Shown here: positions 10,731 to 43,289 of the stretch, one piece after another
Numbering within the stretch: the stretch's first letter is position 1
How the letters are laid out: the number at the start of each line of letters is the position of its first letter
NCBI RefSeq assembly: GCF_964355755.1
Contig: NC_092676.1
Coordinates: forward strand, 5,748,288-5,812,287
DNA: 64,000 nucleotides
Direction of reading: 5' to 3'
DNA from: Antedon mediterranea
Taxonomy: Eukaryota; Echinodermata; Crinoidea; Comatulida; Antedonidae
Notes under the pieces: generated by a model
The model's database searches: none
Seen by the model: only the letters and a program-made list of their open reading frames with translations
Told to the model about the DNA's origin: nothing
Translations under genes and position numbers: made by a program

Positions 10731-10802
10731 AGTAATGTCAGTGCTGTCAATCTATCAAATACATTGACTGGCAATGTACTTATTTGGTTACTGCCCAAAA
10801 AC
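10731..10802 (-). CDS. Gene A LRR exon A9
   Basis: LRR cassette of 72 nt, phase 2/2. Variable residues F-G-S and L, an unusually hydrophobic set. The core has PVN. Confidence 0.87.
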
Positions 10803-11144
10803 CTTCAAAATAAAAGAAAGGTACAGTAACAATTACAATATTTAAGCTGTTTGAAATGTCAACTTTTATTTTCGATATACATTTTTTAATTATTTCTATA
10901 GTCTTTTAGTCAATGAGGGTCATTATCTACATAGTAAATGCTGATGAGTATTCTTTAATTAGGCAAAAATTAACTGTTAAAATAATAATGTGTTATTCTC
11001 ATTATCACAAATTCTATAGAAAATTCTTAATATTAATTATCATCTTAATGTATTTATCATTTTTATGTATTTAATTAAATCTATTTAAATAATGATCAAT
11101 GAAGAATTATTGATAATCTTTAAAAAATTAATAATTTATTAACA

Positions 11145-12593
11145 AAAATTTTTCCTGGACAAATCAGACGATTGATTAATAAACTAAAGTCAAAGAAGTC
11201 TAGTCACCCTGATGACTTGCCAATTAAACTTATAAAAGAATTCGCCTTTGAAATTGCTACCCCACTTGCCCATATTTTTAATTGTTGTCTTAATGAAGGT
11301 GTATTTCCCGAGTTATGGAAGTTAGCAACAGCCATTCCTGTTCCAAAAGTTCCTAATGTGACATCATTTCAAGACCCCAGGCCAATTTCACTTACCCCCA
11401 TCTTTGCCAAGTTGTTTGAGTCATTCCTTACTGATTGGGTGACTAGTGACATTCATCAACATTTAGATATTAAACAATTTGGTTGCCGTAAAGGCTCATC
11501 TACTAGCCATTATCTTGTGGACATGATTCAGTCTGTAATTAGTGATATTGAAAAAGGTGATTCTTTTGTGGATATTTGTGCCGTTGATTTTACGAAGGCC
11601 TTCGACCGAATTGACCATACGGTCATTGTTAGAAAGCTTGTCGACATCGGAGTGAGAACATCTATTATTCCCACCATCTGTAGCTTTCTGACGGATCGTA
11701 AAATAAATACTAAACTTAGTTCATCCTTTTCCCCTTATGCCAACATCACATGTGGGATTCCACAGGCTACAAAGCTTGGGCCAATTTTGTTTCTTATATT
11801 AGTCAATGATATCTCTATGGAAGGCTGCAGATGGTGGAAGTATGTTGATGATCTCACTCTTGGTGACACTGTTAAACATGGTAATGCCCCTAAACTTCAA
11901 TCTTGTCTTGATGACCTTACTGAGTGGTGTGATACAAATCACATGGTCCCTAAACCCTCTAAGTGTCATATCATGAGAGTTAATTTTTTGAAAAGAAATA
12001 TTCCCCCTCCTAATTATTACCTTAGCGGTACAACACTTAATGTGGTTTCGTATATAAAGCTCCTTGGACTTATAATCCAGGATGACTTGAAATGGGATAA
12101 TAATGTCAGTGACATGGTAAAAAGAGCATCCAAAAGGTTGTATACGTTATATATCCTTAGAAGGGCCAATGTACCAGTTCATGATATGATATCCGTTTAT
12201 GTTTGTTATATTCGCCCAATCTTAGAATACGCCTGCCCTGTTTGGCATGGAAGCATCAATAAGGCCCAAATGTCGACCATTGAAAGAGTGCAAAAGAGAG
12301 TTTTACGTATTATTCTGGGTCCCGCTTTCCTTACGTATGATTCAGCTCTTGAGCTTACTGATATGACCACTCTCGCATCCAGACGAGAGACGTTGATTCA
12401 AAAATTTGGAGAAAGGCTCTTGAAATCGGAATTGTACAGAACTATTTTGCCCGACTACCGCATTATTAATAGAGAGCTTAGATCAACCACGGTAGATAAA
12501 CCCCTAATTAATATACCTGTTTGCAGAACTAACCGTCTTAAGACTTCGCCTGCCCTTACCATAAGTAGAATCCTTAATTCAAACAGTACCTGA
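11145..12593 (+). CDS. Reverse transcriptase of a CR1/L2/Jockey-like LINE, 5'-truncated
   Basis: About 482 codons stay open to TGA at 12591-12593, cut at the 5' end by the element truncation, so no true start is present. Reverse-transcriptase blocks are in order: PRPISL near the start, DFTKAFDRIDH (motif A), GIPQATKLGP (motif B; GS is more usual than AT), the catalytic YVDD in WWKYVDDLTL (motif C), KPSKCH, and LGLIIQDDLKWDN (motif E region). A C-terminal domain typical of LINE ORF2 (RPILEYACPVWH, ERVQKRVLRIILG) follows. The endonuclease domain is missing. The lack of stops suggests a fairly recent insertion. The exact clade is not determined. Confidence 0.88.
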   Translation, partial: KIFPGQIRRLINKLKSKKSSHPDDLPIKLIKEFAFEIATPLAHIFNCCLNEGVFPELWKLATAIPVPKVPNVTSFQDPRPISLTPIFAKLFESFLTDWVTSDIHQHLDIKQFGCRKGSSTSHYLVDMIQSVISDIEKGDSFVDICAVDFTKAFDRIDHTVIVRKLVDIGVRTSIIPTICSFLTDRKINTKLSSSFSPYANITCGIPQATKLGPILFLILVNDISMEGCRWWKYVDDLTLGDTVKHGNAPKLQSCLDDLTEWCDTNHMVPKPSKCHIMRVNFLKRNIPPPNYYLSGTTLNVVSYIKLLGLIIQDDLKWDNNVSDMVKRASKRLYTLYILRRANVPVHDMISVYVCYIRPILEYACPVWHGSINKAQMSTIERVQKRVLRIILGPAFLTYDSALELTDMTTLASRRETLIQKFGERLLKSELYRTILPDYRIINRELRSTTVDKPLINIPVCRTNRLKTSPALTISRILNSNST

Positions 12594-12837
12594 TCACGCT
12601 GAAGATGGCTATGTTATAAATATTTACATATATTGGCCTATGCATTTGTATATAAATTTTGTAATCTTTTTAACATAACATAATTTTATTTTTTTAACTG
12701 ATTTTTTCAAATTTTTTAATATTTTGTATAAATTTTTGTATTTTTTTAAATGTTTCTGTTTCCATATATTTATATATATATTTTTGTAAATCAACAATTT
12801 CAGCCTTCGGGCTGCATGTTTTTTATTGTATAAACCT

Positions 12838-12980
12838 GAATAAATAAAATAAATAAATAAATAAATAAATAAAGGCCAACAGCCATAAGTTGCGTAATAA
12901 AATGCATAGTGATACCGGACCGACAGACCGACAGACCGACCGACCGACATAGGGAACTATAGAGTCGCGTCCACGCGACT
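12838..12980. repeat. AATA-tail, (GACC)n microsatellite and hairpin at LINE 3' end
   Basis: An (AATA)n run is followed by a GACAGACCGACC-type run and a perfect 8-bp-arm hairpin AGTCGCGTCCACGCGACT (about 12962-12979) right at the junction with the array. The segment after the tail may be a second small element or a transduced sequence. Confidence 0.55.
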
Positions 12981-13088
12981 AATAATGGTTAAATAATGTT
13001 ACTGCATAATATTCAGTATTATAAATTATTTTATTATTTATTTTAAAACAAATTAAACGAAGGAATTAATATGAGTCAAGATACTTAC

Positions 13089-13160
13089 AGCTCTGTCAAT
13101 GCTGTCAATCTATCAAATACATTGGCTGGCAATGTACTTATTTGGTTACCCACCAAATCC
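13089..13160 (-). CDS. Gene A LRR exon A8
   Basis: LRR cassette of 72 nt, phase 2/2. Variable residues D-V-G and E. In sense order it is the last cassette before the LINE-bearing intron. Confidence 0.88.
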
Positions 13161-13604
13161 CTTCAGAGTAAAAACAATGTACAGTAACAATTACAATATT
13201 TAAGCTGTTTGATATGTCAACTTTTATTTTCGAAATACATTTGGAATGATTGTAATAGTCTTTCAGTCAATGATAGGGACATTATATACACAGTAAATGC
13301 TGATGAGTATTCTTGAATTAGGCAAAAATTAACTGTTAAAATAATAATGTGTTATTCTCATTATCACAAATTCTATAGAAAATTCAAAATATTTATTATC
13401 ATCTTAATGTATTTATCATTTTTATGTATTTAATTAAATCTCTTTAAATAATGACCAATGAAAAATTATTGATAATCTTTAAAAAATAAATAATTTATTA
13501 ATAATGGTTAAATGTTACCGCATAATATTCAGTATTATAAATTATTTTACTATTTATTTAAAAACAAATTCAACGAAGGAATCAATATGAGTCAAAATAC
13601 TTAC

Positions 13605-13676
13605 AGGTGTGTCAGTGCTGTCAATCTATCAAATACATTGGCTGGCAATGTACTTATTTGGTTCCAGTTCAAAGTC
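13605..13676 (-). CDS. Gene A LRR exon A7
   Basis: LRR cassette of 72 nt, phase 2/2. Variable residues T-N-W and H; invariant core. The 63-codon plus-strand open frame across it is its antisense shadow. Confidence 0.88.
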
Positions 13677-14118
13677 CTTCAAAATAAAAGAAAGGTACAG
13701 TAACAACTACAATATTCAAGTTGTTTGAAATGTCAACTTTTATTTTCGAAATACATTTTGAATAATTGTAATAGTCTTTCAGTCAATGATAGGGACATTA
13801 TCTACAGTAAATGCTGATAAGTATTCTTTAATTAGGCAAAAATTAACTGTTAAAATAATAATGTGTTATTCTCATTATCACAAATTCTATAGAAAATTCA
13901 AAATATTTATTATCATCCTAATGTATTTATCATTTTTATGTATTTAATTAAATCTCTTTAAATAATGACCAATGAAAAATTATTGATAATCTTTAAAAAA
14001 TAAATAATTTATTAATAATGGTTAAATGTTACCGCATAATATTCAGTATCATAAATTATTTTATTATTTATTTAAAAACAAATTCAACGAAGGAATCAAT
14101 ATGAGTCAAAATACTTAC

Positions 14119-14190
14119 AGGTGTGTCAGTGCTGTCAATCTATCAAATACATTGGCTGGCAATGTACTTATTTGGTTACTGTACAAATAC
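14119..14190 (-). CDS. Gene A LRR exon A6
   Basis: LRR cassette of 72 nt, phase 2/2. Variable residues Y-Y-S and H, identical to A5: one of only two matching pairs in the window. Confidence 0.88.
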
Positions 14191-14622
14191 CTTCAAAATA
14201 AAAGAAAGGTACAGTAACAATTACAATATTCAAGCTGTTTGATATGTCAACTTTTATTTTCGAAATACATTTGGAATGATTGTAATAGTCTTTCAGTCAA
14301 TGATAGGGACATTATCTACATAGTAAATGTTGATAAGTATTCTTTAATTAGGCAAAAATTAACTCTTAAAATAATAATGTGTTATTCTCATTATCATAAA
14401 TTCTATAGAAAATTCTAAATATTTATCATCTTAATGTATTTATCAATTTTATGTATTTAATTAAATCTCTTTAAATAATGATCAATTAACAATTATTGAT
14501 AATCTTTAAAAATGAATAATTTATTAATAATGGTTAAATAATGTTACTACTATTATGAATTGTTTTATTATTTATTTAAAAACAAATTTAACGAAGGAAT
14601 TAATATGAGTCAAAATACTTAC

Positions 14623-14694
14623 AGGTGTGTCAGTGCTGTCAATCTATCAAATACATTGGCTGGCAATGTACTTATTTGGTTACTGTACAAATAC
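14623..14694 (-). CDS. Gene A LRR exon A5
   Basis: LRR cassette of 72 nt, phase 2/2. Variable residues Y-Y-S and H, a recent duplicate of A6. Confidence 0.88.
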
Positions 14695-15132
14695 CTTCAA
14701 AGTAAAATAAAGGTACAGTAACAATTACAATATTCAAGCTGTTTAGAATCTCAACTTTTATTTTCGATATACATTTTTGAATTATTTTGTATAGTCTTTC
14801 AGTCAGTGATAGAGACATTATCTACATAGTAAATGCTGATGAGTATTCTTTAATTAGGCAAAAATTAACTCTTAAAATAATAATGTGGTATTCTCATTAT
14901 CACAAATTCTATAGCAAACTCTAAATATTTATTATCATCTTAATGTATTTATCATTTTTATGCATTTAATTAAATCTCTTTAATTAATGATCAATGAACA
15001 ATTATTGATAATCTTTAAAAAATGAATAATTTATTAATAAGGGATAAATAATGTTACTACTGTTATGAATTGTTTTATTATTTATTTAAAAACAAATTAA
15101 ACGAAGGAATCAATATGAGTCAAAATACTCAC

Positions 15133-15204
15133 AGGTGTGTCAGTGCTGTCAATCTATCAAATACATTGGCTGGCAATGTACTTATTTTGTTACTGTACAA
15201 ATCC
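15133..15204 (-). CDS. Gene A LRR exon A4
   Basis: LRR cassette of 72 nt with donor GTGAGT instead of GTAAGT. Variable residues D-Y-S and H; NKISTLP core. Confidence 0.87.
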
Positions 15205-15645
15205 CTTCAAAGTAAAAACAATGTACAGTAACAATTACAATATTCAAGTTGTTTGATATGTCAACTTTTGTTTTCATATACATTTTTGAATTATTTTAAT
15301 AATCTTTCAGTCAATGATAGGGACATTATCTACATAGTAAATGCTGATGAGTACTTTTAATTAGGCAAAAATTAACTGTTACAATAATAATGTGTTATTT
15401 ATTATCACATTCTATAGTAAATTCTAAATATTTATTATCATCTTAATGTATTTATCATTTTTATGTATTTAATTAAATCTCTTTAAATAATGATCAATTA
15501 ACAATTATTGATAATCTTTAAAAAATGAATAATTTAATAAGTATGATTAAATAATGTTACAGCTTAATATTCAGTATTATGAATTATTTGATTATGTATT
15601 TAAAAACAAATTACACGAAGGAATTAATATGAGCAAAATACTTAC

Positions 15646-15717
15646 AGTTCTGTCAGTGCTGTCAATCTATCAAATACATTGGCTGGCAATGTACTTATTT
15701 GGTTACGCCCCAAATCC
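15646..15717 (-). CDS. Gene A LRR exon A3
   Basis: LRR cassette of 72 nt, phase 2/2. Variable residues D-G-R and E. It shares D-G-R with A2 but differs at the fourth site. Confidence 0.88.
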
Positions 15718-16144
15718 CTTCAAAGTAAAAATAATGTACAGTAACAGTTACAATATTCAAGCTGTTTGATATGTCAACTTTATTTTTCATATACATTTTG
15801 AACTATTTTAATAGTCTTTCAGTCAATGGTAGGGACATTATCTACATAGTAAATGCTGATGAGTACTTTTAATTAGGCAAAAATTAACTGTTACAATAAT
15901 AATGTGTTATTTATTATCATTCTATAGTAAATTCTAAATATTTATTATCATCTTAATGTATTTATCATTTTTATGTATTTAATTAAATCTCTTTAAATAA
16001 TGATCAATTAACAATTATTGATAATCTTTAAAAATGAATAATTTATTAATAATGGTTAAATAATGTTACTACTATTATGAATTGTTTTATTATTTATTTA
16101 AAAACAAATACAACGAAGGAATTAATATGAGTCAAAATACTTAC

Positions 16145-16216
16145 AGCCATGTCAGTCCTGTCAATCTATCAAATACATTGGCTGGCAATGTACTTATTTG
16201 GTTACGCCCCAAATCC
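16145..16216 (-). CDS. Gene A LRR exon A2
   Basis: LRR cassette of 72 nt, phase 2/2. Variable residues D-G-R and W. The core has LTGLT in place of LTALT. Confidence 0.88.
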
Positions 16217-17321
16217 CTTCAAAGTAAAACAATGTACAGTAAAAATTACAATATTAAAGCTGTTTGTCAACTATTATTTTCATATACATTATGTTATCGT
16301 CTTTCAGTCAATGATAGGGACAAAAATCTTCATAGTAAATACTGATGAGTATACTTTAATTAGGCTAAAATAAAGTGTAAAAATAAGAAAGTTTTATTCT
16401 CATATAAATACAATTTTTATAGGAAATTCTAAATATTTGTTATCATCTTTAATGTATTTAATAAAATAATAATTAGATCTCGTTAAATAATGGCAGATCG
16501 AGTAATTATTTTTATTATCTTTAAAAAGGAATAATTTATTTATAATGGTTAGATATGTTAGGCCTATATTATTACTCATTCTGATTGAGAGGGTTACACT
16601 ACTATAAGAAAACGAATTGTGCATGTCGTAGGGCCCCTCGGAAGAGCAGTTTTTATATTATTTCTACCCTACTGAAAGAAAACGAAATAAATAATTAATA
16701 AATATGTGGTGCACTCTCTCCGAACTAGTATTTCTTCCCTTTCCGATTAATAGTATATTGTACAAAATAAGACAGCTCAAAATGACGATAGTCGGTTTCA
16801 TTGCAATGAGTATCGACGTGTTCACGTTTATATTTATTTTTCGTTTTACAAACATTGAGATAACAATTATCTTCATCTACATCTTCTACTCCTCCCCACT
16901 GACTGTATCTGGAATAACACGTATTTTATAAACAATTGTCTAGGCATTGACCGCGAACCAGATAAATAAGTGTGAAATTTCTAGAAAACTAGATGTATTT
17001 CAATTTTGTTTTACCATTAAAAATGATCGGCATTATCCAGCAAGCTATTTCACGAAAACTTATTCAAAATTGTACATATAGAAACTGCTATCATCCATAA
17101 TTAAATAGTGATCAAATACAATGGTTTTTATCTTTATGGAAAGTGTTTATGTGCTCATCATTTTTTCTCAAACATTCTGTTTCTGCCTCTGTTCCATTTT
17201 ATTTCATTATAGCCTCACAACTGGGACTGCGATAAGATATTGTTAACAATATAGGAACTTGACCTTACCTCAGTCACAGAAAGAAAATCGTATTACCCAT
17301 AAAACACTGAACCGGAAACAA

Positions 17322-17728
17322 AACTAAGATATCTCTATTAATAGAGATATCTCTATTAATAGAGATATCTTAGTTTTAAATAGATATCTCTATTAATAGA
17401 GATATCTCTGTTAATAGAGATATCTCTATTAATAGAGATATCTTAGTTTTAAATAGATATCTCTATTAATAGAGATATCTCTGTTAATAGAGATATCTCT
17501 ATTAAAAACTAAGATATCTTAATTTTAATAGAGATATCTTAGTTTTAAAAGAGATATCTCTATTAATAAAGATATAGAGATATCTCTGTTAATAGAGATA
17601 TCTCTATTAAAAACTAATATATCTTAGTTTTAAATAGAGATATCTTAGTTTTTAATAGAGATATCTTAGTTTTTAATAGAGATATCTCTATTGATAGAGA
17701 TATCTTAGTTTTAAACTAAGATATCTTT
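17322..17728. repeat. Palindromic AT satellite (GATATC core)
   Basis: About 400 bp of repeats of a self-complementary unit, AATAGAGATATCTCTATT, mixed with TTAGTTTTAA spacers. Every unit has GATATC. It can fold into many alternative hairpins or cruciforms. Confidence 0.9.
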
Positions 17729-17908
17729 ATTTCCGAATAAATGACAGCTTGGCGCGCCATAAAAATGATCAAATAACAACTTTCGTAGCGTACTTATATA
17801 TCGGTCGTAGTAGACACCATTTATAATTGTAAATAGAGCAAGCAACAGAAATAATCGATAATATAAACAGTGAAGGTGTTTCCCTGGTAGGCATACCAGG
17901 CCTCCTAT

Positions 17909-18260
17909 AGTAACATTGAATCGCACCTAAATTTGATTAAATGATTAATAAATAGCATAAATAATTAGTTCAATTAGCCTCCTATAGTAAAATTGAATCG
18001 CACCTAAATAGCATAAATAATTAGTTAAATTGATAAAACAAATTGTATTTCACGTAAAGTAAAGGCCTTTATAATTGATTAGTTGAATATCTAAAACAAA
18101 TAAATTGTAGTTCACGATCGATTCAGTTGAATCGCTAAATTTACATTGTAGTTCACGTAAAAGTAAAGGCCTTCAATAATAGTTAAATTACTAAATAAAT
18201 TGTAGTTCACGTAAAGTAAATTTCTTAAATCAATATAACTGATTAGTTAAATATCTAAAA
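17909..18260. repeat. Degenerate direct repeats
   Basis: CCTCCTATAGTAACATTGAA.. is repeated about 70 bp apart, and TTGTAGTTCACGTAAAGTAA occurs several times, often followed by AGGCCTT. No known element recognised. Confidence 0.6.
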
Positions 18261-18682
18261 CAAATTAATTGATTAATTAATTAATTAATATTTTGTATTT
18301 AATATTGAATGTCGCCACCAACGGCCATGTTGCCGGAAGTGACGGACCCGGAATCCCGTTGAACAGCGCGAGTGTGTGAAAACAAAATAACCCTGTGATA
18401 TCCACAAATTTCGATAGGTTACGCAAAATTTTGTCGTTGTAAAAGATAAAAATGGAACAATAGCGTAGTACTGAAAACAATTTTATCAAATCTACGTTTC
18501 GCGGTACATCTAAGATAGATAATGTAGGTATCCAAGGCGGAGATTTGTACGTCAGAATTAACCATAATTTATAGGCCTATATAGATAAAATGAATATTAG
18601 CAAAACAATGTAGGCCTACAGTACAAATTGCAATATTCATTTTGATATGTCAACTTTTTATTTTAAATTTTCTTTTTTTTTT

Positions 18683-18747
18683 GACGACGACGACGACAAC
18701 AATAATAATGATGATGATGATGATGATGATGATGACGATGACGATGA
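18683..18747. repeat. GAC/AAT/GAT trinucleotide microsatellite
   Basis: A run of GAC, AAT and GAT triplets of about 65 bp. Confidence 0.9.
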
Positions 18748-19279
18748 ATATCCTTTTAAATAATGCCCAAGGATCAATTATTATTATTTTTAATTAAAAA
18801 AAAAGAATAATTGTTGAATATTTTACAAATGATTTAAAAAATATATTGATGATGTATTGATCACATAATGAAATGATACAATGCATACAATTCATATAAA
18901 TTATCTATTTAAAAAATAAATTAAACAAAAAATTAAATATTGCACCCCTTAAACAATTTAAAAAAAAAAACATGTTGTTGTTGAATATGCCATTTTAATG
19001 TCAATAATAATAAAAAATTCTTTTTTTATTTATCCTCATTTTTTATGGTTTTTGGAGCACAATACATATTTAATAATTAATATGAGCAAAATACTTTCAG
19101 TTTTCTCAATTTATTGATAATGTTATTTTACTAATGCTTTTAAAATCTTTACTGTTTGTATAAATGTTTACATTATAAGATGATTAAATGTATATCATAC
19201 ATTATTATAACTTAATATATTACCGTATTTCTTTTTAAATCAAATTAAACAAAGAAATTAATATGAGCAAAATACTTAC

Positions 19280-19351
19280 AGCCATGTCAATGCTGTCAAT
19301 CTATCAAATACATTGGCTGGCAATGTACTTATTATGTTATTCCTCAAATAC
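19280..19351 (-). CDS. Gene A LRR exon A1 (most 5' and isolated)
   Basis: LRR cassette of 72 nt, phase 2/2, separated from A2 by about 3 kb of unrelated repeats. Variable residues Y-R-N and W; core begins NIISTLP. Its flanks are more diverged than those of the other cassettes. Confidence 0.85.
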
Positions 19352-23767: not shown

Positions 23768-23982
23768 CGGGAAGGGTATCACTATTCCATGCGATAGTAA
23801 TATTATCATAGTCAGACTCGATGACTTGATAAATTGTAAAGTTAACATCAGTTGAGTTGATAAATTCAATACTACTATAATCACTTTCACTGCCACCATC
23901 GCTGCCACTGTCACAGCGATAACAAGGTAATACAACCAATATAACAATACAATAGTAATATGATTCCTTTTAAGATGAACAT
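23768..23982 (-). pseudogene. Gene A exon 1, frameshifted
   Basis: Homologous to exon 1 of genes B and C from ATG (23982) to the phase-1 donor (sense GTATGATTGC, plus-strand 23758-23767). It is 215 nt, whereas a multiple of three plus one is needed. A 2-bp deletion in the signal-peptide codons (near 23950) puts the ATG frame into an early stop, while the frame that fits the donor is open downstream (VVLPCYRCDSG, later NSDTLPG). The mature linker is shorter in Ser/Gly and longer in Asn-X-Thr/Ser sites than in genes B and C. Confidence 0.75.
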
Positions 23983-31521: not shown

Positions 31522-34500
31522 CTATGAGAGAGTAAAGTAAACTTGGCAAATGAATTTGAATAGTTATTTTTTTCGGAGGCCCAAATTGTTACTCTTCGAT
31601 CCCAAAAATAATGAGTAAAGGTTTAGAATAGTCGAAGATTAATTGTGAAAGTACATTTTTATGATACTTTCGGATAAATAAGAATAATAAAATACTATCT
31701 GTTTATAAGCATAATAACACATCGAATATCATGATTGTAACATAGCCGAATTAACTATTAATTTTAATATATCTATTTAAATTGAACATAATTAAAACAT
31801 TTACCACATTCAAATTATCAAATGTAACTTACTTAACTAAAACACCGACAAATTTAACATTCAATAAAATTATTTACTGTACATATAGCAAAGAGAATAA
31901 ATACTAATAGCTGCATAAGTTTGTATGAGCATCTCTCATACTTTTATCATACTTACAATTCTTTTAAATTGTTCAGTTCTTCAAAAGTTCTATCTCTGTA
32001 ATTCTGTAAGTTGTTCTTTTGTAACAATCTATAGGATAACATATTAGAAATAAATTAAGAATAGGCTAATACATTTTGAAAAAAGTAAAGTTTTCAAACT
32101 ATGGTTTATGTATGCTTTTCTTGAAGAAAATACATGAACTATGTATATTTTAACTGTTATGAATCCTCTTTATCTTTATCTTTGAATGTGGTCTGTATAT
32201 TTTTGTATTGTTTTTAAGATGGCCTCTTCAAGTCAGCTGTACTGCTGTAGTACTGTTAGAGCTACCCTTGTAAAACAAATTTGAATGAATAAATACATAT
32301 ATTAATAATTTATTTATCTGTACATAACACTATTCTAAATTCAAGACCCCTGATGAAAACAAAATACACTTTCTTTGTTTACTTGTTTGCGAAGTTTTCC
32401 ATTCAAATTCAGTGGTTGAATACATCCTTTGTGTTCGAAGTTCTGATTATTATTGTATGTTTTTTTAACGTTTTGTACTGTAATGCCTATAGCACTGATA
32501 CATATAACTATTCAAATACAAAGCTTCCTCACATTTTGACATTGAATCGTACAGCAAAAACTTTATTTTTTATTTGTTTACAGCAATAACTCCTTTACGG
32601 CTTCACAAGTGTGTTATAAAATCATGTTAACTTACAAACGTGAAAGTGATGAAGCAAAAGAAGAAAATGCACCTGGTTCTATGGTAGTTATAGCGTTTTC
32701 CTGTAAATACCTGTTAAGATAACCAATATGTATTATTATATATCTTGTTTTTCACATTACATTAAGTAAAGTACAGATACAAGTATTATTGTATTACACA
32801 TTGCATAATATTCAATACTCTCATATACATTAATTCCTTGTCTCTTCTGGGTATTTTTTTTTAATAAGGGGATAAAAAGTTCACTTTTTTATTGAATCTC
32901 ATCAAATAATTGTTTGTTAATTATTGTTTGTTAATCTTAATATTCTATTGATTTTTTACAACAATTGATAACACAGTGACTGGTTATAATACAACAAATG
33001 TAAATTAGACTGGATCATAATAATAGAAAGTAGTTCTGTTTCTGGGATATACGTCAGTAAATACTGATGGCCTGGGTATACTTTAATCAGGCTTAAATAT
33101 ATGTTTATTTTGTTATTTTTATAGGAAATCATAACAATTTGTTATCATCTTTATGTATTTAATAATATAATTATTTAATTTACCTAAATAATGACCAATA
33201 CACAATTATTAATATCTTTAAACAATGAATAATTTAATGAAAATTGTTAATACTGTATGTGATTTTTTTTTTAAATACTGTGTTTTTTGATCAAATTATG
33301 AATGATAAACTGCATAATATTCATTATTATGAATTATTTCATTTGTTTTCTTTTTAAATAAATTAAAACAAACAAATTAATTTTAGAAAAATACTTACAG
33401 TTCTGTCAGTGCTGCCAATCTATCAAATACATTGGCTGGCAATGTACGTATTTTGTTATTGTACAAATACCTTCAAAGTAAAAGAAAGATACAGTAACAA
33501 TTACAATATTCAAGCTGTTTGAAATGTCAACTTTTATTTTCAATATACATTTTTGAATTATTTGTATAGTCTTTCAGTCAATGGTAGGGACATTATCTAC
33601 ATAGTAAATGCTGATGAGTATTCTTTAATTAGGCAAAAATTAACTGTTAAAATAATAATGTGTTATTTATTATCACAAATTCTATAGTAAATTCTAAATA
33701 TTTATTATCATCTTTATGTATTTATCATTTTTATGTATTTAATTAAATCTCTATAATGACCAATGAACAATTATCGATAATCTTTTAAAAATGAAAAATG
33801 TATGAATAATGGCCTCTTCAAGTCAGCTGTATACTGCTCTAGTACTCTTATAGATACCCTTGTAAACAAATTTGAATTAATAAATAAATTTATTTTTTAT
33901 AGCAAATTCTAATTATTATTTGTTTTATTATTATCCTAATGTTTTATTATCATTTATCATTTATTATCTACATAATAAATACTGATGGCCTGGGTATACT
34001 TTAATTAGGCTAAAATATATGTTTTATTTTGTTATTCTCATGAACATAATTTTTATAGGAAATCATACAAATTTGTTATCATCTTTATGTATTTAATAAT
34101 ATAATTATTTAATTTACCTAAATAATGACCAATAAACAATTATTAATATCTTTAAACAATGAATAATGTAATGAAAATTGTTAATACTGTATGTGATTTT
34201 TTTTTAAATACTGTGTTTGTTGATCAAATTATGAATGATAAACTGCATTATATTCATTGTTATGAATTATTTCATTTGTTTTCTTTTTAAGTAAATTAAA
34301 ACAAATAAATTAATTTTAGAAAAATACTTACAGTTTTGTCAGTGCTGTCAATCTATCAAATACATTGGCTGGCAATGTACTTATTTGGTTTCTGTCCAAA
34401 TGCCTTCAAAGTAAAAACAATGTACAGTAACAATTACAATATTCAAGTTGTTTGATGTGTCAACTTTTATTTTCGGTATACATTTTTTTTTAATTATTTG

Positions 34501-37500
34501 TATAGTCTTTCAGTCAATGATAGGGACATTATCTACATAGTAAATGCTGATGAGTATTCTTTAATTAGGCAAAAATTAACTGTTAAAATGAGAATGTGTT
34601 ATTCTCATTATCACAAATTCTATAGAAGATTCTAAATATTTATTATCATCTTAATGTATTTATCATTTTTATGTATTTAATTAATTCTCTTTAAATAATT
34701 ATCAATGAACAATTATTGATAATCTTTAAAAAATGAATGATTTATTAATAATGGGTAAATAATGTTACTGCATAATATTCAGTATTATAAATTATTTTAT
34801 TATTTATTTAAAAACAAATTAGACGAAGGAATTAATATGAGTCAAAATACTTACAGCCATGTCAGTGCTGTCAATCTATCAAATACATTGGCTGGCAATG
34901 TGCTTATTTGGTTACCGCTCAAATCCCTTCAAAGTAAAAACAATGTACAGTAACAATTACAATATTCAAGCTGTTTGATATGTCAACTTTTATTTTCGGT
35001 ATACATTTTTTTTGAATTATTTCTATAGTCTTTCAGTCAATGATAGGGACATTATCTACATAGTAAATGCTGATGAGTATTCTTTAATTAGGCAAAAATT
35101 AACTGTTAAAATAATAATGTGTTATTTATTATCACAAATTCTATAGTAAATTCTAAATATTTATTATCATCTTTATGTATTTATCATTTTTATGTATTTA
35201 ATTAAATCTCTATAATGACCAATGAACAATTATCGATAATCTTTTAAAAATGAAAAATGTATGAATAATGGCCTCTTCAAGTCAGCTGTATACTGCTCTA
35301 GTACTCTTATAGATACCCTTGTAAAACAAATTTGAATTAATAAATAAATTTATTTTTTATAGCAAATTCTAATTATTATTTGTTTTATTATTATCCTAAT
35401 GTTTTATTATCATTTATCATTTATTATCTACATAATAAATACTGATGGCCTGGGTATACTTTAATTAGGCTAAAATATATGTTTTATTTTGTTATTCTCA
35501 TGAACATAATTTTTATAGGAAATCATACAAATTTGTTATCATCTTTATGTATTTAATAATATAATTATTTAATTTACCTAAATAATGACCAATAAACAAT
35601 TATTAATATCTTTAAACAATGAATAATGTAATGAAAATTGTTAATACTGTATGTGATTTTTTTTTAAATACTGTGTTTGTTGATCAAATTATGAATGATA
35701 AACTGCATTATATTCATTGTTATGAATTATTTCATTTGTTTTCTTTTCAAATAAATTAAAACAAATAAATTAATTTTAGAAAAATACTTACAGTTTTTTC
35801 AGTGCTGCCAATCTATCAAATACATTGGCTGGCAATGTACTTATTTGGTTATAGCTCAAATACCTTCAAAGTAAAAACAATGTACAGTAGCAATTACAAT
35901 ATTCAAGCTGTTTGAAATGTCAACTTTTATTTTCAATATACATTTTTGAATTATTTTAATAGTCTTTCAGTCAATGATAGGGACATTATCTACATAGTAA
36001 ATGCTGATGAGTATTCTTTAATTAGGCAAAAATTAACTGTTAAAATGATAATGTGTTATTCTCATTATCACAAATTCTATAGAAGATTCTAAATATTTAT
36101 TATCATCTTAATGTATTTCCCATTTTTATGTATTTAATTAAATCTCTTTAAAAAATGATCAATGAACAATTATTGATAATCTTTAAAAAATGAATAATTT
36201 ATTAATAATTGTTAAATAATGTTACTGCATAATATTTAGTATTATAAATTATTTTATTATTTATTTAAAAACAAATTACACGAAGGAATTAATATGAGTC
36301 AAAATACTTACAGTGTTGTCAGTGCTGTCAATCTATCAAATACATTGGCTGGCAATGTACTTATTTGGTTTCTGCTCAAACTCCTTCAAAGTAAAAACAA
36401 TGTACAGTAACAATTACAATATTCAAGGTGTTTGATATGTCAACTTTTATTTTCGGTATACATTTTTTTTGAATTATTTCTATAGTCTTTCAGTCAATGA
36501 TAAGGACATTATCTACATAGTAAATGCTGATGAGTATTCTTTAATTAGGCAAAAAGTAACTGTTAAAATAATAATGTGTTATTTATTATCACAAATTCTA
36601 TAGTAAATTCTAAATATTTATTATCATCTTTATGTATTTATCATTTTTATGTATTTAATTAAATCTCTTTAAATAATGACCAATGAACAATTATTGATAA
36701 TCTTTAAAAAATGAATGATTTATTAATAATGGGTAAATAATGTTACTGCATAATATTCAGTATTATAAATTATTTTATTATTTATTTAAAAACGAATTAC
36801 ACGAAGGAATTAATATGAGTCAAAATACTTACAGCCATGTCAGTGCTGTCAATCTATCAAATACATTGGCTGGCAATGTGCTTATTTGGTTACCGCTCAA
36901 ACCCCTTCAAAGTAAAAACAATGTACAGTAGCAATTACAATATTCAAGCTGTTTGAAATGTCAACTTTTATTTTCAATATACATTTTTGAATTATTTTAA
37001 TAGTCTTTCAGTCAATGATAGGGACATTATCTACATAGTAAATGCTGATGAGTATTCTTTAATTAGGCAAAAATTAACTGTTAAAATGATAATGTGTTAT
37101 TCTCATTATCACAAATTCTATAGAAGATTCTAAATATTTATTATCATCTTAATGTATTTATCATTTTTATGTATTTAATTAAATCTCTTTAAATAATGAC
37201 CAATGAACAATTATTGATAATCTTTAAAAAATGAATAATTTATTAATACTGGTTAAATAATGTTACTGCATAATATTTAGTATTATAAATTATTTTATTA
37301 TTTATTTAAAAACAAATTAAACGAAGGAATAATATGAGTCAAAATACTTACAGTTCTGTCAGTGCTGTCAATCTATCAAATACATTGGCTGGCAATGTGC
37401 TTATTTGGTTATACCACAAATTCCTTCAAAGTAAAAACAATGTACAGTAACAATTACAATATTCAAGCTGTTTAGAACCTCAACTTTTATTTTCGGTATA

Positions 37501-40500
37501 CATTTTTTTTGAATTATTTGTATAGTCTTTCAGTCAATGATAGGGACATTATCTACATAGTAAATGCTGATGAGTATTCTTTAATTAGGCAAAAAGTAAC
37601 TGTTAAAATAATAATGTGTTATTTATTATCACAAATTCTATAGTAAATTCTAAATATTTATTATCATCTTTATGTATTTATCATTTTTATGTATTTAATT
37701 AAATCTCTATAATGACCAATGAACAATTATCGATAATCTTTTAAAAATGAAAAATGTATGAATAATGGCCTCTTCAAGTCAGCTGTATACTGCTTTAGTA
37801 CTCTTATAGATACCATTGTAAAACAAATTTGAATTAATAAATAAATTTATTTTTTATAGCAAATTCTAATTATTATTTGTTTTATTATTATCCTAATGTT
37901 TTATTATCATTTATCATTTATTATCTACATAATAAATACTGATGGACTGGGTATACTTTAATTAGGCTAAAATATATGTTTTATTTTGTTATTCTCATGA
38001 ACATAATTTTTATAGGAAATCATACAAATTTGTTATCATCTTTATGTATTTAATAATATAATTATTTAATTTACCTAAATAATGACCAATAAACAATTAT
38101 TAATATCTTTAAACAATGAATAATGTAATGAAAATTGTTAATACTGTATGTGATTTTTTTTTAAATACTGTGTTTGTTGATCAAATTATGAATGATAAAC
38201 TGCATAATATTCATTATTATGAATTATTTCATTTGTTTTCTTTTTAAATAAATTAAAACAAACAAATTAATTTTAGAAAAATACTTACAGTTCTGTCAGT
38301 GCTGCCAATCTATCAAATACATTGGCTGGCAATGTACTTATTTGGTTATAGGTCAAATACCTTCAAAGTAAAAACAATGTACAGTAGCAATTACAATATT
38401 CAAGCTGTTTGAAATGTCAACTTTTATTTTCAATATACATTTTTGAATTATTTTAATAGTCTTTCAGTCAATGATAGGGACATTATCTACATAGTAAATG
38501 CTGATGAGTATTCATTAATTAGGCAAAAATTAACTGTTAAAATGATAATGTGTTATTCTTATTATCACAAATTCTATAGAAGATTCTAAATATTTATTAT
38601 CATCTTAATGTATTTCCCATTTTTATGTATTTAATTAAATCTCTTTAAAAAATGATCAATGAACAATTATTGATAATCTTTAAAAAATGAATAATTTATT
38701 AATAATGGTTAAATAATGTTACTGCATAATATTCAGTATTATAAATTATTTTATTATTTATTTAAAAACAAATTACACGAAGGAATTAATATGAGTCAAA
38801 ATACTTACAGCCATGTCAGTGCTGTCAATCTATCAAATACATTGGCTGGCAATGTACTTATTTGGTTACTGTGCAAATACCTTCAAAGTAAAAACAATGT
38901 ACAGTAACAATTACAATATTCAAGGTGTTTGAAATGTCAACTTTTATTTTCAATATACATTTTTGAATTATTTCTATAGTCTTTCAGTCAATGATAGGGA
39001 CATTATCTACATAGTAAATGCTGATGAGTATTCTTTAATTAGGCAAAAATTAACTGTTAAAATGATAATGTGTTATTTATTATCACAAATTCTATAGTAA
39101 ATTCTAAATATTTATTATCATCTTAATGTATTTATCATTTTTATGTATTTAATTAAATCTCTTTAAATAATGATCAATGAACAATTATTGATAATCTTTA
39201 AAAAATGAATAATTTATTAATACTGGTTAAATAATGTTACTGCATAATATTTAGTATTATAAATTATTTTATTATTTATTTAAAAACAAATTAAACGAAG
39301 GAATTAATATGAGTCAAAATACTTACAGTTCTGTCAGTGCTGTCAATCCATCAAATACATTGGCTGGCAATGTACTTATTTGGTTATCGTGCAAATCCCT
39401 TCAAAGTAAAAACAATGTACAGTAACAATTACAATATTCAAGTTGTTTGATATGTCAACTTTTATTTTCGGTATACATTTTTTTTGAATTATTTCTATAG
39501 TCTTTCAGTCAATGATAGGGACATTATCTACATAGTAAATGCTGATGAGTATTCTTTAATTAGGCAAAAATTAACTGTTAAAATGATAATGTGTTATTCT
39601 CATTATCACAAATTCTATAGAAGATTCTAAATATTTATTATCATCTTAATGTATTTCCCATTTTTATGTATTTAATTAAATCTCTTTAAAAAATGATCAA
39701 TGAACAATTATTGATAATCTTTAAAAAATGAATAATTTATTAATAATGGTTAAATAATGTTACTGCATAATATTTAGTATTATAAATTATTTTATTATTT
39801 ATTTAAAAACAAATTAAACGGAGGAATTAATATGAGTCAAAATACTTACAGCTGTGTCAGTGCTGTCAATCTATCAAATACATTGGCTGGCAATGTGCTT
39901 ATTTGGTTACTGTTCAACCTCCTTCAAAGTAAAAACAATGTACAGTAACAATTACAATATTCAAGCTGTTTGATATGTCAGCTTTTATTTTCAGTATACA
40001 TTTTTTTTGAATTATTTGTATAGTCTTTCAATCAATGATAAGGAAATTATCTACATAGTAAATGCTGATGAGTATACTTTAATTAGGCAAAAATTAACTG
40101 TTAAAATAATAATGTGTTATTTATTATCACAAATTTTATAGTAAATTCTAAATATTTATTATCATCTTAATGTATTTATCATTTTTATGTATTTAATTAA
40201 TTCTCTTTAAATAATTATCAATGAACAATTATTGATAATCTTTAAAAAATGAATGATTTATTAATAATGGGTAAATAATGTTACTGCATAATATTCAGTA
40301 TTATAAATTATTTTATTATTTATTTAAAAACAAATTACACGAAGGAATTAATATGAGTCAAAATACTTACAGCCATGTCAGTGCTGTCAATCTATCAAAT
40401 ACATTGGCTGGCAATGTGCTTATTTGGTTACCGCTCAAACCCCTTCAAAGTAAAAACAATGTACAGTAGCAATTACAATATTCAAGCTGTTTCAAATGTC

Positions 40501-43289
40501 AACTTTTATTTTCAATATACATTTTTGAATTATTTTAATAGTCTTTCAGTCAATGATAGGGACATTATCTACATAGTAAATGCTGATGAGTATTCTTTAA
40601 TTAGGCAAAAATTAACTGTTAAAATGATAATGTGTTATTCTCATTATCACAAATTCTATAGAAGATTCTAAATATTTATTATCATCTTAATGTATTTCCC
40701 ATTTTTATGTATTTAATTAAATCTCTTTAAAAAATGATCAATGAACAATTATTGATAATCTTTAAAAAATGAATAATTTATTAATAATTGTTAAATAATG
40801 TTACTGCATAATATTTAGTATTATAAATTATTTTATTATTTATTTAAAAACAAATTAAACGAAGGAATTAATATGAGTCAAAATACTTACAGGTGTGTCA
40901 ATGCTGTCAATCTATCAAATACATTGGCTGGCAATGTGCTTATTTGGTTACCGTTCAAATCCCTTCAAAGTAAAAACAATGTACAGTAACAATTACAATA
41001 TTCAAGCTGTTTGATATGTCAGCTTTTATTTTCGGTATACATTTTTTTTGAATTATTTGTATAGTCTTTCAGTCAATGATAGGACATTATCTACATAGTA
41101 AATGCTGATGAGTATTCTTTAATTAGGCAAAAAGTAACTGTTAAAATAATAATGTGTTATTTATTATCACAAATTCTATAGTAAATTCTAAATATTTATT
41201 ATCATCTTAATGTATTTATCATTTTTATGTATTTAATTAAATCTCTATAATGACCAATGAACAATTATCGATAATCTTTTAAAAATGAAAAATGTATGAA
41301 TAATGGCCTCTTCAAGTCAGCTGTATACTGCTCTAGTACTCTTATAGATACCCTTGTAAAACAAATTTGAATTAATAAATAAATTTATTTTTTATAGCAA
41401 ATTCTAATTATTATTTGTTTTATTATTATCCTAATGTTTTATTATCATTTATCATTTATTATCTACATAATAAATACTGATGGACTGGGTATACTTTAAT
41501 TAGGCTAAAATATATGTTTTATTTTGTTATTCTCATGAACATAATTTTTATAGGAAATCATACAAATTTGTTATCATCTTTATGTATTTAATAATATAAT
41601 TATTTAATTTACCTAAATAATGACCAATAAACAATTATTAATATCTTTAAACAATGAATAATGTAATGAAAATTGTTAATACTGTATGTGATTTTTTTTT
41701 AAATACTGTGTTTGTTGATCAAATTATGAATGATAAACTGCATTATATTCATTGTTATGAATTATTTCATTTGTTTTCTTTTTAAGTAAATTAAAACAAA
41801 TAAATTAATTTTAGAAAAATACTTACAGTTTTGTCAGTGCTGTCAATCTATCAAATACATTGGCTGGCCATGTACTTATTTGGTTACCGTACAACAACCT
41901 TCAAAGTAAAAACAATGTACAGTAACAATTACAATATTCAAGCTGTTTGAAATGTCAACTTTTATTTTCGGTATACATTTTTTTTGAATTATTTCTATAG
42001 TCTTTCAGTCAATGATAGGACATTATCTACATAGTAAATGCTGATGAGTATTCTTTAATTAGGCAAAAAGTAACTGTTAAAAAAGGAATAATTTATTAAT
42101 AATGGTTAAATAATGTTACTGCATAATATTCAGTATTATAAATTATTTTCTTATTTATTTAAAAACAAATTAAACGAAGGAATTAATATGAGTCGAAATA
42201 CTTACAGGTGTGTCAATGCTGTCAATCTATCAAATACATTGGCTGGCAATGTACTTATCCGGTTATAACTCAAATCCCTTCAATGTAAAAAAAAGTTCAT
42301 TAACAATTACAATATTTGATATTCCATTCATACAGGTATAGGCCTACAGTGATTGTGCTTGGGGTATATAAAGTGACCCCACAAAATGAAATTATTTCTG
42401 ATAACTCTAAGTACTAAATTTCAAATTGTCATTAGGTCATTATTACATATTTTAAAATATATATTATATATATTTTTAAATTCCACGTTTTATAATAAAC
42501 TTACAATGAAATGTTTGCACTGACTGACTTACAATTCTGTTACTGGAATATGATCATTATACTCGTTGATGGTTGCGATGTTATTAATACTCCATGGAGG
42601 ACGACATTCCACTCTGTGACCGTAAGTAGACCTCTTAGGCGCACCACATTCACAGTCGGCTGGACATTCTGCATTTGTTAAAAACAAGACAACTCGGAGA
42701 TACGTCAAGAAAGGAAAAGTGGAAACTATCTTTTTCAATATATATGTAATGTTACAAATGCAATCAAATCAAATAAAATGTCTAGCTGTGACCGCTCAAT
42801 TAAATATAATTCGAATCAGATAAAAAAATTAATTCATAATCATGTAAAAATAAATACTGTATAGTACAGTATATAAACAAAAGTTGAACATTAACATTTA
42901 AATCAGATTGTCTTCGAAGTTTAATAACAGTACTGTTGTTATAAACCAACAAAACAGTATAGTTTGTATGAGGCATACTGTTCAAAGACAGGGCTACATC
43001 TATTATTAAATACAGTATCAAATACCAAACAGCTAATTAATTATTATATTAAACAATTAATAAATTAAAAAAATGAAGCAATCATACCGGGAAGGGTATT
43101 AGGATTCCAGGCGATAGTAGTAGGATCATAGTCAGAGTTGATGACGTGATTGGTAACGTTAACGTAAGTAGAGCTGCCACTGTCACTGTCACCACCACTG
43201 GGAAGGGTGTCACTAAAACAACGAGAACAAGGTAATACAACCAATATAACAATACAATACAGTAGTATGATTCCTTTTAAGATGAACAT
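30507..43289 (-). CDS. LRR-GPCR gene B, complete 18-exon receptor with hypervariable LRR array
   Basis: Exons in sense order: signal peptide and linker (43088-43289), LRRNT (42533-42668), fifteen 72-nt LRR exons (42206-42277 down to 33399-33470) and 7TM (30507-31521). Lengths 202+136+1080+1015 sum to 2,433 nt, a multiple of three, giving 810 residues plus stop, and all phases agree. Predicted: a plasma-membrane GPCR with an extracellular solenoid of 15 near-identical LRRs joined directly to an LGR-type hinge and 7TM. No LDLa domain and no LRRCT cap are seen; the Cys hinge may serve as cap. The LRR backbone is constant and the concave-face residues vary. Function is inferred as recognition of diverse ligands (immune, allorecognition or chemosensory); signalling partner unknown. 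GRL101/relaxin-receptor-like by 7TM motifs. Confidence 0.88.
32219..32300 (+). mobile_element. LINE 3'-tail relic in the 7TM-proximal intron of gene B
   Basis: Paralogous to 9895-9978. The same tail recurs inside the long cassette introns, which hints that this intron seeded them. Confidence 0.5.
33399..33470 (-). CDS. Gene B LRR exon B15 (next to 7TM)
   Basis: LRR cassette of 72 nt, phase 2/2. Variable residues Y-Y-N and E. NKIRTLP and LAAL core variants, close to C3. Confidence 0.88.
33808..33900 (+). mobile_element. LINE 3'-tail relic in long-type intron B14-B15
   Basis: Copy of the GGCCTCTTCAAGTCAGCTGT tail, carried by unit duplication. Confidence 0.5.
34332..34403 (-). CDS. Gene B LRR exon B14
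   Basis: LRR cassette of 72 nt, phase 2/2. Variable residues H-D-R and K, the most charged set. Followed by a long-type intron. Confidence 0.9.
34855..34926 (-). CDS. Gene B LRR exon B13
   Basis: LRR cassette of 72 nt, phase 2/2. Variable residues D-S-G and W; invariant core. Confidence 0.9.
35267..35360 (+). mobile_element. LINE 3'-tail relic in long-type intron B12-B13
   Basis: Another copy of the same relic. Confidence 0.5.
35792..35863 (-). CDS. Gene B LRR exon B12
   Basis: LRR cassette of 72 nt, phase 2/2. Variable residues Y-S-Y and K. Here the normally constant Thr before the fourth variable site is also Lys (ALKK). Confidence 0.88.
36312..36383 (-). CDS. Gene B LRR exon B11
   Basis: LRR cassette of 72 nt, phase 2/2. 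Variable residues S-S-R and T; invariant core. Confidence 0.9.
36833..36904 (-). CDS. Gene B LRR exon B10
   Basis: LRR cassette of 72 nt, phase 2/2. Variable residues G-S-G and W, identical to B4: a recent duplicate or conversion product. Confidence 0.9.
37352..37423 (-). CDS. Gene B LRR exon B9
   Basis: LRR cassette of 72 nt, phase 2/2. Variable residues N-W-Y and E, a markedly aromatic face. Confidence 0.9.
37765..37858 (+). mobile_element. LINE 3'-tail relic in long-type intron B8-B9
   Basis: Another copy of the same relic, in the intron downstream (sense) of B8. Confidence 0.5.
38289..38360 (-). CDS. Gene B LRR exon B8
   Basis: LRR cassette of 72 nt, phase 2/2. Variable residues Y-T-Y and E. 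LAAL core variant, as in B12 and B15. Confidence 0.9.
38809..38880 (-). CDS. Gene B LRR exon B7
   Basis: LRR cassette of 72 nt, phase 2/2. Variable residues Y-H-S and W; invariant core. Confidence 0.9.
39327..39398 (-). CDS. Gene B LRR exon B6
   Basis: LRR cassette of 72 nt, phase 2/2. Variable residues D-H-D and E, an acidic set. The core has FDGL in place of FDRL. Confidence 0.9.
39850..39921 (-). CDS. Gene B LRR exon B5
   Basis: LRR cassette of 72 nt, phase 2/2. Variable residues R-N-S and Q; invariant core. Confidence 0.9.
40371..40442 (-). CDS. Gene B LRR exon B4
   Basis: LRR cassette of 72 nt, phase 2/2. Variable residues G-S-G and W, same as B10. Confidence 0.9.
40891..40962 (-). 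CDS. Gene B LRR exon B3
   Basis: LRR cassette of 72 nt, phase 2/2. Variable residues D-N-G and H; invariant core. Confidence 0.9.
41302..41396 (+). mobile_element. LINE 3'-tail relic in long-type intron B2-B3
   Basis: Another copy of the same relic. Confidence 0.5.
41827..41898 (-). CDS. Gene B LRR exon B2
   Basis: LRR cassette of 72 nt, phase 2/2. Variable residues L-Y-G and K. The core has STWPAN in place of STLPAN, which removes a consensus Leu. Confidence 0.88.
42206..42277 (-). CDS. Gene B LRR exon B1 (first after LRRNT)
   Basis: LRR cassette of 72 nt, phase 2/2. Variable residues D-S-Y and H; NRISTLP core. Shares its unusual acceptor flank (CATTGAAG) with C1, marking it as the fixed first repeat. 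Confidence 0.9.
42533..42668 (-). CDS. Gene B LRRNT exon
   Basis: The exon is 136 nt, phase 1 in and phase 2 out. It encodes the Cys-rich N-cap (ECPADCECGAPKR, later VECRPPW) ending IPVTEL. It matches the gene C exon (2647-2782) without visible change, in contrast to the diversified LRR exons that follow. Confidence 0.9.
43088..43289 (-). CDS. Gene B exon 1: signal peptide and short linker
   Basis: The ATG is at 43289. A hydrophobic signal peptide (LLYCIVILVVLPC) is followed by a linker with few Ser/Asp/Gly repeats and by NVT and NTLPG, ending in phase 1 at GTATGATTGC. Compared with gene C it lacks most of the SDSGSG repeat. The frame is intact, unlike gene A. Confidence 0.88.

Follow-up and report, generated by a model that had tools for sequence, protein, structure and literature searches.

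Gene B and its array of LRR exons

We analysed a stretch of 64,000 nucleotides (hereafter the window) from the crinoid Antedon mediterranea, corresponding to C7:5748288-5812287 in an assembly of 354 Mb; coordinates without a prefix are positions in the window. A first interpretation made from the letters alone (the sequence-only reading) had proposed that one gene of the window, gene B, encodes a G-protein-coupled receptor (GPCR) whose leucine-rich repeats (LRRs) combine a constant scaffold with a hypervariable binding face. Gene B lies on the minus strand at 30507-43289 and leads from an exon for an N-terminal LRR cap (LRRNT) through fifteen 72-nt phase-2 LRR exons to a relaxin-receptor-like seven-transmembrane (7TM) exon (Table 1). 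Each array exon is preceded by AG, followed by GT and in phase 2 at both ends. The LRRNT exon has an identical copy at 2647-2782 and a 97.8% copy at C7:5725469-5725604. Two other members of the family reach into the window: gene A, with a 7TM frame and ten LRR exons, and gene 0, represented by its first four LRR exons, the remaining LRR exons and the 7TM exon (C7:5733225-5734229) lying to the left.

When joined in silico, the gene B exons gave an open frame of 859 residues, in which Pfam recognized 7tm_1 (PF00001) and 16 stretches of LRR_8 (PF13855). Pfam found neither PF00057 (LDLa) nor a ROC-COR GTPase family in this model, which was built from genomic exons alone. Among PDB entries, the 7TM exon matched RXFP1 best (7tmw, E 1.2e-46), followed by the FSH, LH and TSH receptors (FSHR, LHCGR and TSHR). 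The 7TM domain, the LRR ectodomain and the cysteine hinge together bear out the earlier assignment to the LGR type (leucine-rich-repeat-containing GPCRs). In a tree of 27 sequences, which held no rows for vertebrate RXFP or glycoprotein-hormone receptors, the genes of the window fell into a crinoid group of 11 rows (support 100/99); this group also holds proteins named GRL101-like and forms with LDLa or lectin domains from Antedon and Anneissia. To judge from these matches, the gene B family is related to GRL101 and relaxin receptors and is without an LDLa module in our model.

Table 1. Coordinates of gene B and of its relatives in the window
Feature	Position	Strand	Remarks
Gene B exon 1	43088..43289	-	Signal peptide and short acidic linker; phase-1 donor; from translation and splice reading
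Gene B exon 2	42533..42668	-	LRRNT cap (ECPADCECG...PVTE), 136 nt
Gene B LRR array	33399..42277	-	Fifteen 72-nt phase-2 exons; starts 33399, 34332, 34855, 35792, 36312, 36833, 37352, 38289, 38809, 39327, 39850, 40371, 40891, 41827, 42206
Gene B divergent LRR exon	32636..32710	-	75 nt; YLQENAITTIEPGAF...
Gene B last LRR exon	31957..32028	-	72 nt; LLQKNNLQNYRDRTFEELNNLKE
Gene B hinge and 7TM exon with stop codon	30507..31521	-	PF00001; hinge CCLV...CEPVDAFASCEDLL
Gene A exon 1 remnant	23768..23982	-	Frame broken relative to gene B
Gene A LRR array	10216..19351	-	Ten 72-nt exons; starts 10216, 10731, 13089, 13605, 14119, 14623, 15133, 15646, 16145, 19280
Gene A last LRR exon	9632..9703	-	
Gene A hinge and 7TM frame	8035..9042	-	From DFSRLCC to stop; 325/335 residues as in gene B; 5' splice site approximate
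Gene 0 exon 1	3202..3481	-	Ser/Gly/Asp-rich stretch expanded compared with gene B
Gene 0 LRRNT exon	2647..2782	-	Identical to gene B LRRNT
Gene 0 LRR exons in window	72..2390	-	4 of its 24; starts 72, 1007, 1939, 2319

Variation is concentrated at four residues of each repeat

The sequence-only reading had located the variation at x0, x1, x2 and x3 of the motif LTx0-L-x1-L-x2x3-N. Its count of fifteen 72-nt exons was right, and all fifteen residue sets that it listed agreed with our re-translation; a small correction is that x0 of one exon shares a beta-strand with x1-x3 of the next exon. A blastn search with one gene B exon as the query gave 29 matches in the window, and the window holds 29 LRR exons of the gene B scaffold type (15 from gene B, ten from gene A and four from gene 0), all of them stop-free and with intact splice dinucleotides. 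In these exons, x0-x3 accounted for 76% of the amino-acid entropy and ranked first among the 8855 four-site sets out of 23 codons, so we rejected chance placement of the variable sites. The four sites are thus dominant, as had been claimed, although codons 6, 8, 17, 19 and 22, among others, also vary slightly.

A genome scan for a 33-base stretch of the scaffold (three or fewer mismatches) detected 114 copies, compared with none for the reversed pattern; the 100 of these that were listed are all on C7. In the DNA that we read from C7 5.0-5.8 Mb, there were 95 scaffold copies at the same threshold. From this region we assembled a set of 88 intact exons in eight arrays (7, 12, 5, 8, 7, 24, 10 and 15 exons), of which 59 lie outside the window; 87 of the 95 copies are among them, the remaining exon of the set being more diverged. 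For the arrays at 5.02, 5.23, 5.47 and 5.50 Mb, we read only part of the DNA.

Over the 88 exons, the entropy was 2.85 bits at x1, 2.99 at x2, 3.15 at x3 and 3.31 at x0, together 70% of the total, and at most 1.24 bits elsewhere. Our exon finder requires LRR-like residues at several scaffold positions, which lowers the entropy there; scaffold positions that it does not constrain nevertheless stayed at or below 1.24 bits. The wider sample did not scatter the variable sites over the repeat: the 59 exons outside the window gave the same top four, as did seven of the eight arrays taken singly, the exception being the array of five exons. Distinct four-residue sets numbered 27 in the 29 window exons and 76 in all 88, and the commonest residues at the four sites of the 88 exons were Y, S, G, D, N, R, H and W. 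Such a residue mix is typical of the binding faces of antibodies and variable lymphocyte receptors (VLRs).

In an LRR solenoid, the open positions of LxxLxLxxN point towards the concave surface. In a predicted model of an Antedon homologue (P0004, mean pLDDT 76.5), strands span x0-L-x1 in six of the seven listed repeats, the first repeat having R for L, which suggests that x0-x3 lie on the concave face of gene B as well. Compared with PDB entries, the P0004 model was closest to TSHR and LGR4; FSHR ranked seventh and RXFP1 35th.

Variable bases change faster than introns

The introns of the arrays are alike, so every pair of exons carries its own neutral yardstick. We took the 656 of 3828 exon pairs with a flank difference below 8% over at least 280 aligned bases and divided them into five classes with mean flank differences of 0.34%, 1.6%, 2.6%, 4.0% and 6.4% (13, 36, 36, 171 and 400 pairs, respectively, which are not independent of one another). 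The 12 variable bases differed by 21%, 47%, 48%, 54% and 58% in these classes, that is, 62, 30, 18.5, 13 and 9 times as much as the flanks. The other 60 exon bases differed by 1.7%, 2.6%, 2.5%, 3.4% and 4.3% (4.9, 1.6, 0.96, 0.85 and 0.67 times the flanks), and were thus near the flank rate in four of the five classes, the closest pairs excepted. Together with the entropy over the 88 exons, this flank-matched change upholds the proposal of a constant scaffold with a hypervariable face.

Nonsynonymous difference (pN) in the four codons exceeded synonymous difference (pS) in the other nineteen codons by a factor of 7.3 in the 88 exons (bootstrap 6.0-9.3), 6.8 in the 59 outside exons (5.4-8.6) and 9.6 in the 29 window exons (6.6-15.1). 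The expectation that the ratio of nonsynonymous to synonymous change (dN/dS) would be high at the four sites was therefore justified in that change there is far above both pS of the remaining exon and intron change, and was weaker within the four codons themselves, as described below. Because the variable bases outrun the introns, relaxed constraint cannot explain their variation, whereas diversifying selection together with exon duplication and shuffling can; we rejected mere loss of constraint on this ground.

A constant 7TM exon follows exchangeable LRR exons

The 7TM exon of gene B differs from that of gene 0 at 2 of 1005 bases, from that of the gene at C7:5718067 at five, and from that of gene A at 33 (23 synonymous and 10 not; pN/pS 0.13). 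The 7TM exons of six genes were all stop-free, with pN/pS of 0.09-0.39 in 14 of 15 gene pairs where defined, and change in this exon falls mainly at synonymous sites. Despite their near-identical 7TM exons, genes B and 0 have arrays of fifteen and twenty-four exons, respectively, that share one variable haplotype; in the full set of eight arrays, different genes have just one 12-base variable haplotype in common.

Aligning the 5' parts of genes 0 and B revealed no difference in the 136 bases of the LRRNT exon, compared with 11 of 72 in the first LRR exon and 13 of 72 in the second. From 43101 to 41304, blocks of 100 bases without an LRR exon held zero to two differences each. Over the noncoding 5' bases as a whole, 40 of 1953 differed, and differences become more frequent both on the upstream side, within exon 1 and ahead of it, and on the downstream side, at positions below 41203. 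Some of the exon differences affect scaffold or synonymous bases, which makes an exchange of whole exons probable. Young pairs may also differ by single steps at variable codons, as in the gene B exons at 35792 and 38289 (5 of 360 flank bases differ). Identical exons occurred at multiple places in ten cases, nine of them inside one gene, and the gene 0 array contains a repeated exon block. Judging from these comparisons, exon-level shuffling or duplication and selected point change are both visible.

Relatives elsewhere in the genome and in other echinoderms

The 7TM exon of gene B had at least 118 matches in the genome, of which at least 55 span 300 or more residues at 59% or higher identity, 44 of these being stop-free; the counts are lower bounds, as 120 of 291 candidates were scored. 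The Antedon mediterranea protein P0189 is identical to the last 299 residues of the C7:5718067 gene (299/299); of these 299 residues, it shares 298 with gene B, 296 with gene 0 and 292 with gene A. Because its 299 residues include no LRR, this public gene model misses the ectodomain, and such families may accordingly be overlooked elsewhere.

For other clades of the family, we read ten upstream stretches; six held five or more 72-nt phase-2 LRR exons, and four held only two to four. The four most variable sites were again x0-x3 at C8:24.38 Mb and C7:18.04 Mb, on different scaffolds. The C8 locus is a cluster of LRR-GPCRs (C8:24377695-24384695, L058, and C8:24447931-24454431, L060) with a homogenised scaffold of its own, about STLTENAFAGLESLE, on which the concave residues vary. 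At C7:18042932-18049432 (L061), a third type of scaffold, about SNLPADIFDGLNNLQ, again varies most at these four sites. Three of the other-clade arrays (L061, L062 and L066) still contain an LRR exon of the last type. In the brittle star Amphiura filiformis, P0078 is an LRR-GPCR of 1499 residues with a regular scaffold (EGIFKDLTNLET) in which x1-x3 vary and x0 is nearly constant.

Several C7 loci outside the window carry LRR exons of the window type. Thirteen are present at C7:8275401-8310000 (L054-L056, read in part), with AG and GT in 12 of them and no stops, beside 7TM matches at C7:8266068-8299062 that are full of stops. Arrays at C7:5022997-5031895 and 5228919-5250500 have no 7TM exon nearby among the matches listed, and are possibly orphan cassette arrays or genes for soluble forms. 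At C7:5467049-5473969 and 5501339, in two plus-strand genes, six scaffold copies have LAAN for LPAN and each is without a GT donor; these would represent a dead or differently spliced exon type.

No relative of the 7TM exon was found in the viral contigs searched. A protein search with the LRR array returned mostly generic LRR proteins among the 120 of 667 matches listed. For the ambulacrarians studied by Veenstra, the available text of PMC8286064 gives a single orthologue of each of three LGR types, so the expansion was not recognised in that text.

Other features of the window

Gene A (8035-23982) is probably a decaying copy, to judge from its exons; blastn found neither an LRRNT exon nor a 75-nt LRR exon for it. 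Between its LRR exons at 10731 and 13089 sits an open reading frame (ORF) for a reverse transcriptase (11124-12593, PF00078), probably of a type like a long interspersed nuclear element. In the region 3179-3490, exon 1 of gene 0 differs from that of gene B by a low-complexity linker of changed length. The window also contains tandem arrays of a 17-bp unit (about 62 copies, 61457-62503) and of a 143-bp unit (3.4 copies, 50961-51449). A match to the chemokine family PF00048 at 20859-21104 was below the cut-off (16.9 versus 21.3 bits) and probably reflects chance; there is a similar frame at 20031-20216. Nine other ORFs of the window gave a single match to Pfam, below threshold.

A proposed recognition receptor and its alternatives

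We consider it probable that gene B belongs to an expanded crinoid family of LGR-type GPCRs and serves as a germline recognition receptor, in which a variable binding face is joined to a constant G-protein-coupled output. The diversity that we observed is that of the germline. The arrays that we read have 5 to 24 LRR exons each, and because their 72-nt exons are symmetric in phase 2, the frame survives the gain, loss or exchange of a cassette, and any subset of exons remains in frame. New arrays would be made by duplication, unequal crossing-over or short conversion tracts; diversifying selection, imposed by a changing ligand that touches the concave face, would retain new residue combinations; and binding would be relayed by way of the hinge to the 7TM domain and from there to a G protein. 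A conserved hormone would need no such turnover, so a foreign or individual-specific ligand is most likely, such as a surface molecule of a microbe or parasite, or a cue for self/non-self or mate recognition.

Several observations weigh against this interpretation. Eight of the 95 scaffold copies had to be left out of the 88 exons, seven because one or both splice dinucleotides are missing and one because W replaces a scaffold L, which means that some copies cannot be used; gene A, too, looks broken. Identical variable bases were found in 6 of the 13 closest exon pairs. Inside the four codons alone, pN/pS was only 1.24 (1.45 for x1-x3; 88 exons); the first and second bases are near saturation, which compresses this ratio, and judged by it alone the excess would be modest. 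Third bases of codons 1, 3 and 4 show T/C differences in 2.5%, 27% and 18% of comparisons, compared with 59-66% at the first two bases, so these codons are not free of synonymous change. Both 7TM differences between genes B and 0 change the amino acid and none is synonymous, a number too small to judge. Among the six arrays of other clades, three (on C1, C10 and C4) were without the pattern, and the second C8 gene had three of the four sites. Finally, 29 of 126 other regular LRR proteins have the same top four sites, with gene B second in contrast; this share is biased, since the proteins were collected by similarity to gene B. The protein pattern alone is therefore not special to the gene B family. 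What is special to it is the intron yardstick, the 7TM partner and the common constant part.

The anatomy and the diversifying selection could be the same in a receptor with a chemosensory or reproductive task (for a pheromone, gamete or spawning cue) instead of an immune one, a reading that we regard as a serious possibility while leaning away from it. Expansion of GPCR families is usual in chemosensation, but such families usually vary in the 7TM pocket, whereas in the present genes it is a large protein-binding surface that varies, beside a 7TM exon that hardly changes. Starfish provide points in its favour: a GRL101-like receptor is more strongly expressed in sensory tentacles than in tube feet (PMC6267866), and spawning peptides bind relatives of LGR type C as their receptors (PMC11863921), each as given in the available text. 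The snail GRL101-like receptors described in the accessible part of PMC12297450, by contrast, lie in a schistosome-resistance locus.

A bolder form of the germline receptor that we favour would be an antibody-like split between constant and variable parts on a GPCR, with cassettes alternatively spliced or somatically rearranged so that each animal displays many faces, all attached to one signalling domain, for immune or individual recognition. We think this unlikely.

It is improbable that selection plays no part, that is, that gene conversion homogenised a structural scaffold and left four surface residues simply unconstrained. The scaffold residues are indeed structural, the arrays are plainly homogenised, and the four codons by themselves give a pN/pS near 1. 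However, unconstrained sites should not exceed introns, as the 12 variable bases do in every class, while the 60 other bases stay at 0.67 to 1.6 times the flanks in four of five classes. Conversion, moreover, hardly separates bases of one codon: 80 of the 88 exons have T as the third base of codon 1, yet the two bases before it differ in 59% of comparisons.

We give slightly less credence still to a receptor for a hormone, such as a relaxin or insulin-like peptide, that merely duplicates its LRRs. Relaxin and GRL101 receptors are the closest to its 7TM domain, but the number of related 7TM matches (at least 55) and a face that changes faster than introns would ill suit a conserved hormone, and the gene B model is without LDLa, which the LGR3/LGR4-type receptors of ambulacrarians carry according to the available text of PMC8286064.

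A set of decaying repeats, or an artefact of the assembly, that yields no expressed receptor would account for the broken exon 1 of gene A and its LRRNT missing by blastn, the stops in the 7TM matches of the C7:8.27 Mb cluster, the splice dinucleotides lost from 7 of 95 copies and the absence of LRRs from P0189; we find this very improbable given splice sites and frame kept in 29 of 29 window exons, six stop-free 7TM exons under the constraint noted above, 44 of the 55 related 7TM matches listed being without a stop, and arrays that differ in content and not just in exon number.

Hardest to credit is a targeted mutator that rewrites the variable codons (adenine-directed, as in diversity-generating retroelements, or AID/APOBEC-like): the signal is limited to a few bases, and the third bases T, C and T of codons 1, 3 and 4 are mostly kept while the first two vary, as from an AAY template, but all 29 window exons have A as the third base of codons 9, 11, 14, 19, 20 and 22, none of them has lost the third C of codon 12, and third bases of variable codons become G or A in a minority. 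With these synonymous A and C scaffold positions fixed, we rejected adenine-directed or deaminase-type mutation, and untargeted or adenine-only mutation is largely refuted.

Comparison with known recognition systems

In VLRs, antigen contacts are made at the same concave LRR positions, and the receptor ends in an LRRCT, a stalk and an anchor with no 7TM domain; in gene B, a 7TM exon follows the LRRs. The likeness to the lamprey VLR face that the sequence-only reading had drawn is sustained by the LRRNT, the LRR solenoid and the hypervariable residues that the homologue model would place on the concave side. Among the PDB matches were the VLR entries 2o6q and 3m19. VLRs of lampreys and hagfish are assembled somatically from incomplete cassettes, with the help of a cytidine deaminase, and involve no GPCR (in part from the available text of PMC13428168), whereas gene B has complete, spliceable germline exons and its LRR domain is fused to a 7TM domain. 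The same text, a 2026 review of how animal immunity diversifies, describes echinoderm recognition in terms of large germline families; the word GPCR is absent from it.

The closest design is the LRR-ROCO family of the brown algae Ectocarpus and Saccharina, in which, as the available text of PMC11378527 relates (citing Zambounis 2012), each LRR is encoded by one 72-bp phase-2 exon and four concave sites are positively selected. Tandem arrays of such exons, the four concave sites, exon shuffling and a proposed role in recognition recur in the gene B family, so that the same cassette logic is seen in brown algae and in an animal; the four-site selection was judged by flank-matched and pN/pS comparison in our case and by reported site selection in ROCO. 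The ROCO proteins differ in belonging to an unrelated lineage and in carrying a ROCO GTPase in place of a membrane GPCR, and splice variants have been shown for them.

The SudRes2 cluster of the snail Biomphalaria sudanica contains tandem, hyperdiverse GRL101-like LRR-GPCRs that are tied to parasite resistance (PMC12297450). Like gene B, these receptors of the same group have an LRR ectodomain on a class A 7TM domain and form a tandem cluster; unlike it, they carry LDLa and C-type lectin domains, and the available text describes no array of hypervariable LRR exons on a constant scaffold. LRR genes of Tetrahymena likewise have arrays of phase-2 exons of exact length that are shuffled by ectopic recombination (PMC6564038), but the exons measure 90 bp, and the terms GPCR, concave, hypervariable and positive selection are absent from the main text as available. 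RXFP1, RXFP2 and the starfish RXFP/LGR3 receptors resemble gene B in the hinge and 7TM domain and differ from it in their LDLa module (for the LGR3 and LGR4 types, in the available text of PMC8286064), in place of which the gene B model has none and shows a hypervariable face.

Our searches of open-licence papers in PMC, a scope outside which subscription papers and preprints fall, turned up no description of a GPCR that carries hypervariable LRR cassettes. The suggestion of an undescribed recognition system thus stands within that literature as far as the GPCR is concerned, and not for the design principle, which is known from VLRs and brown-algal ROCO proteins. If true, a VLR-like face on a G-protein-coupled domain would add another independent way in which animals achieve variable recognition, and its four residues per exon make the system easy to read, model and test. 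By this comparison, the 7TM domain would place the gene B family in the LGR superfamily; in its working it would resemble a VLR or a ROCO receptor, without belonging to either group.

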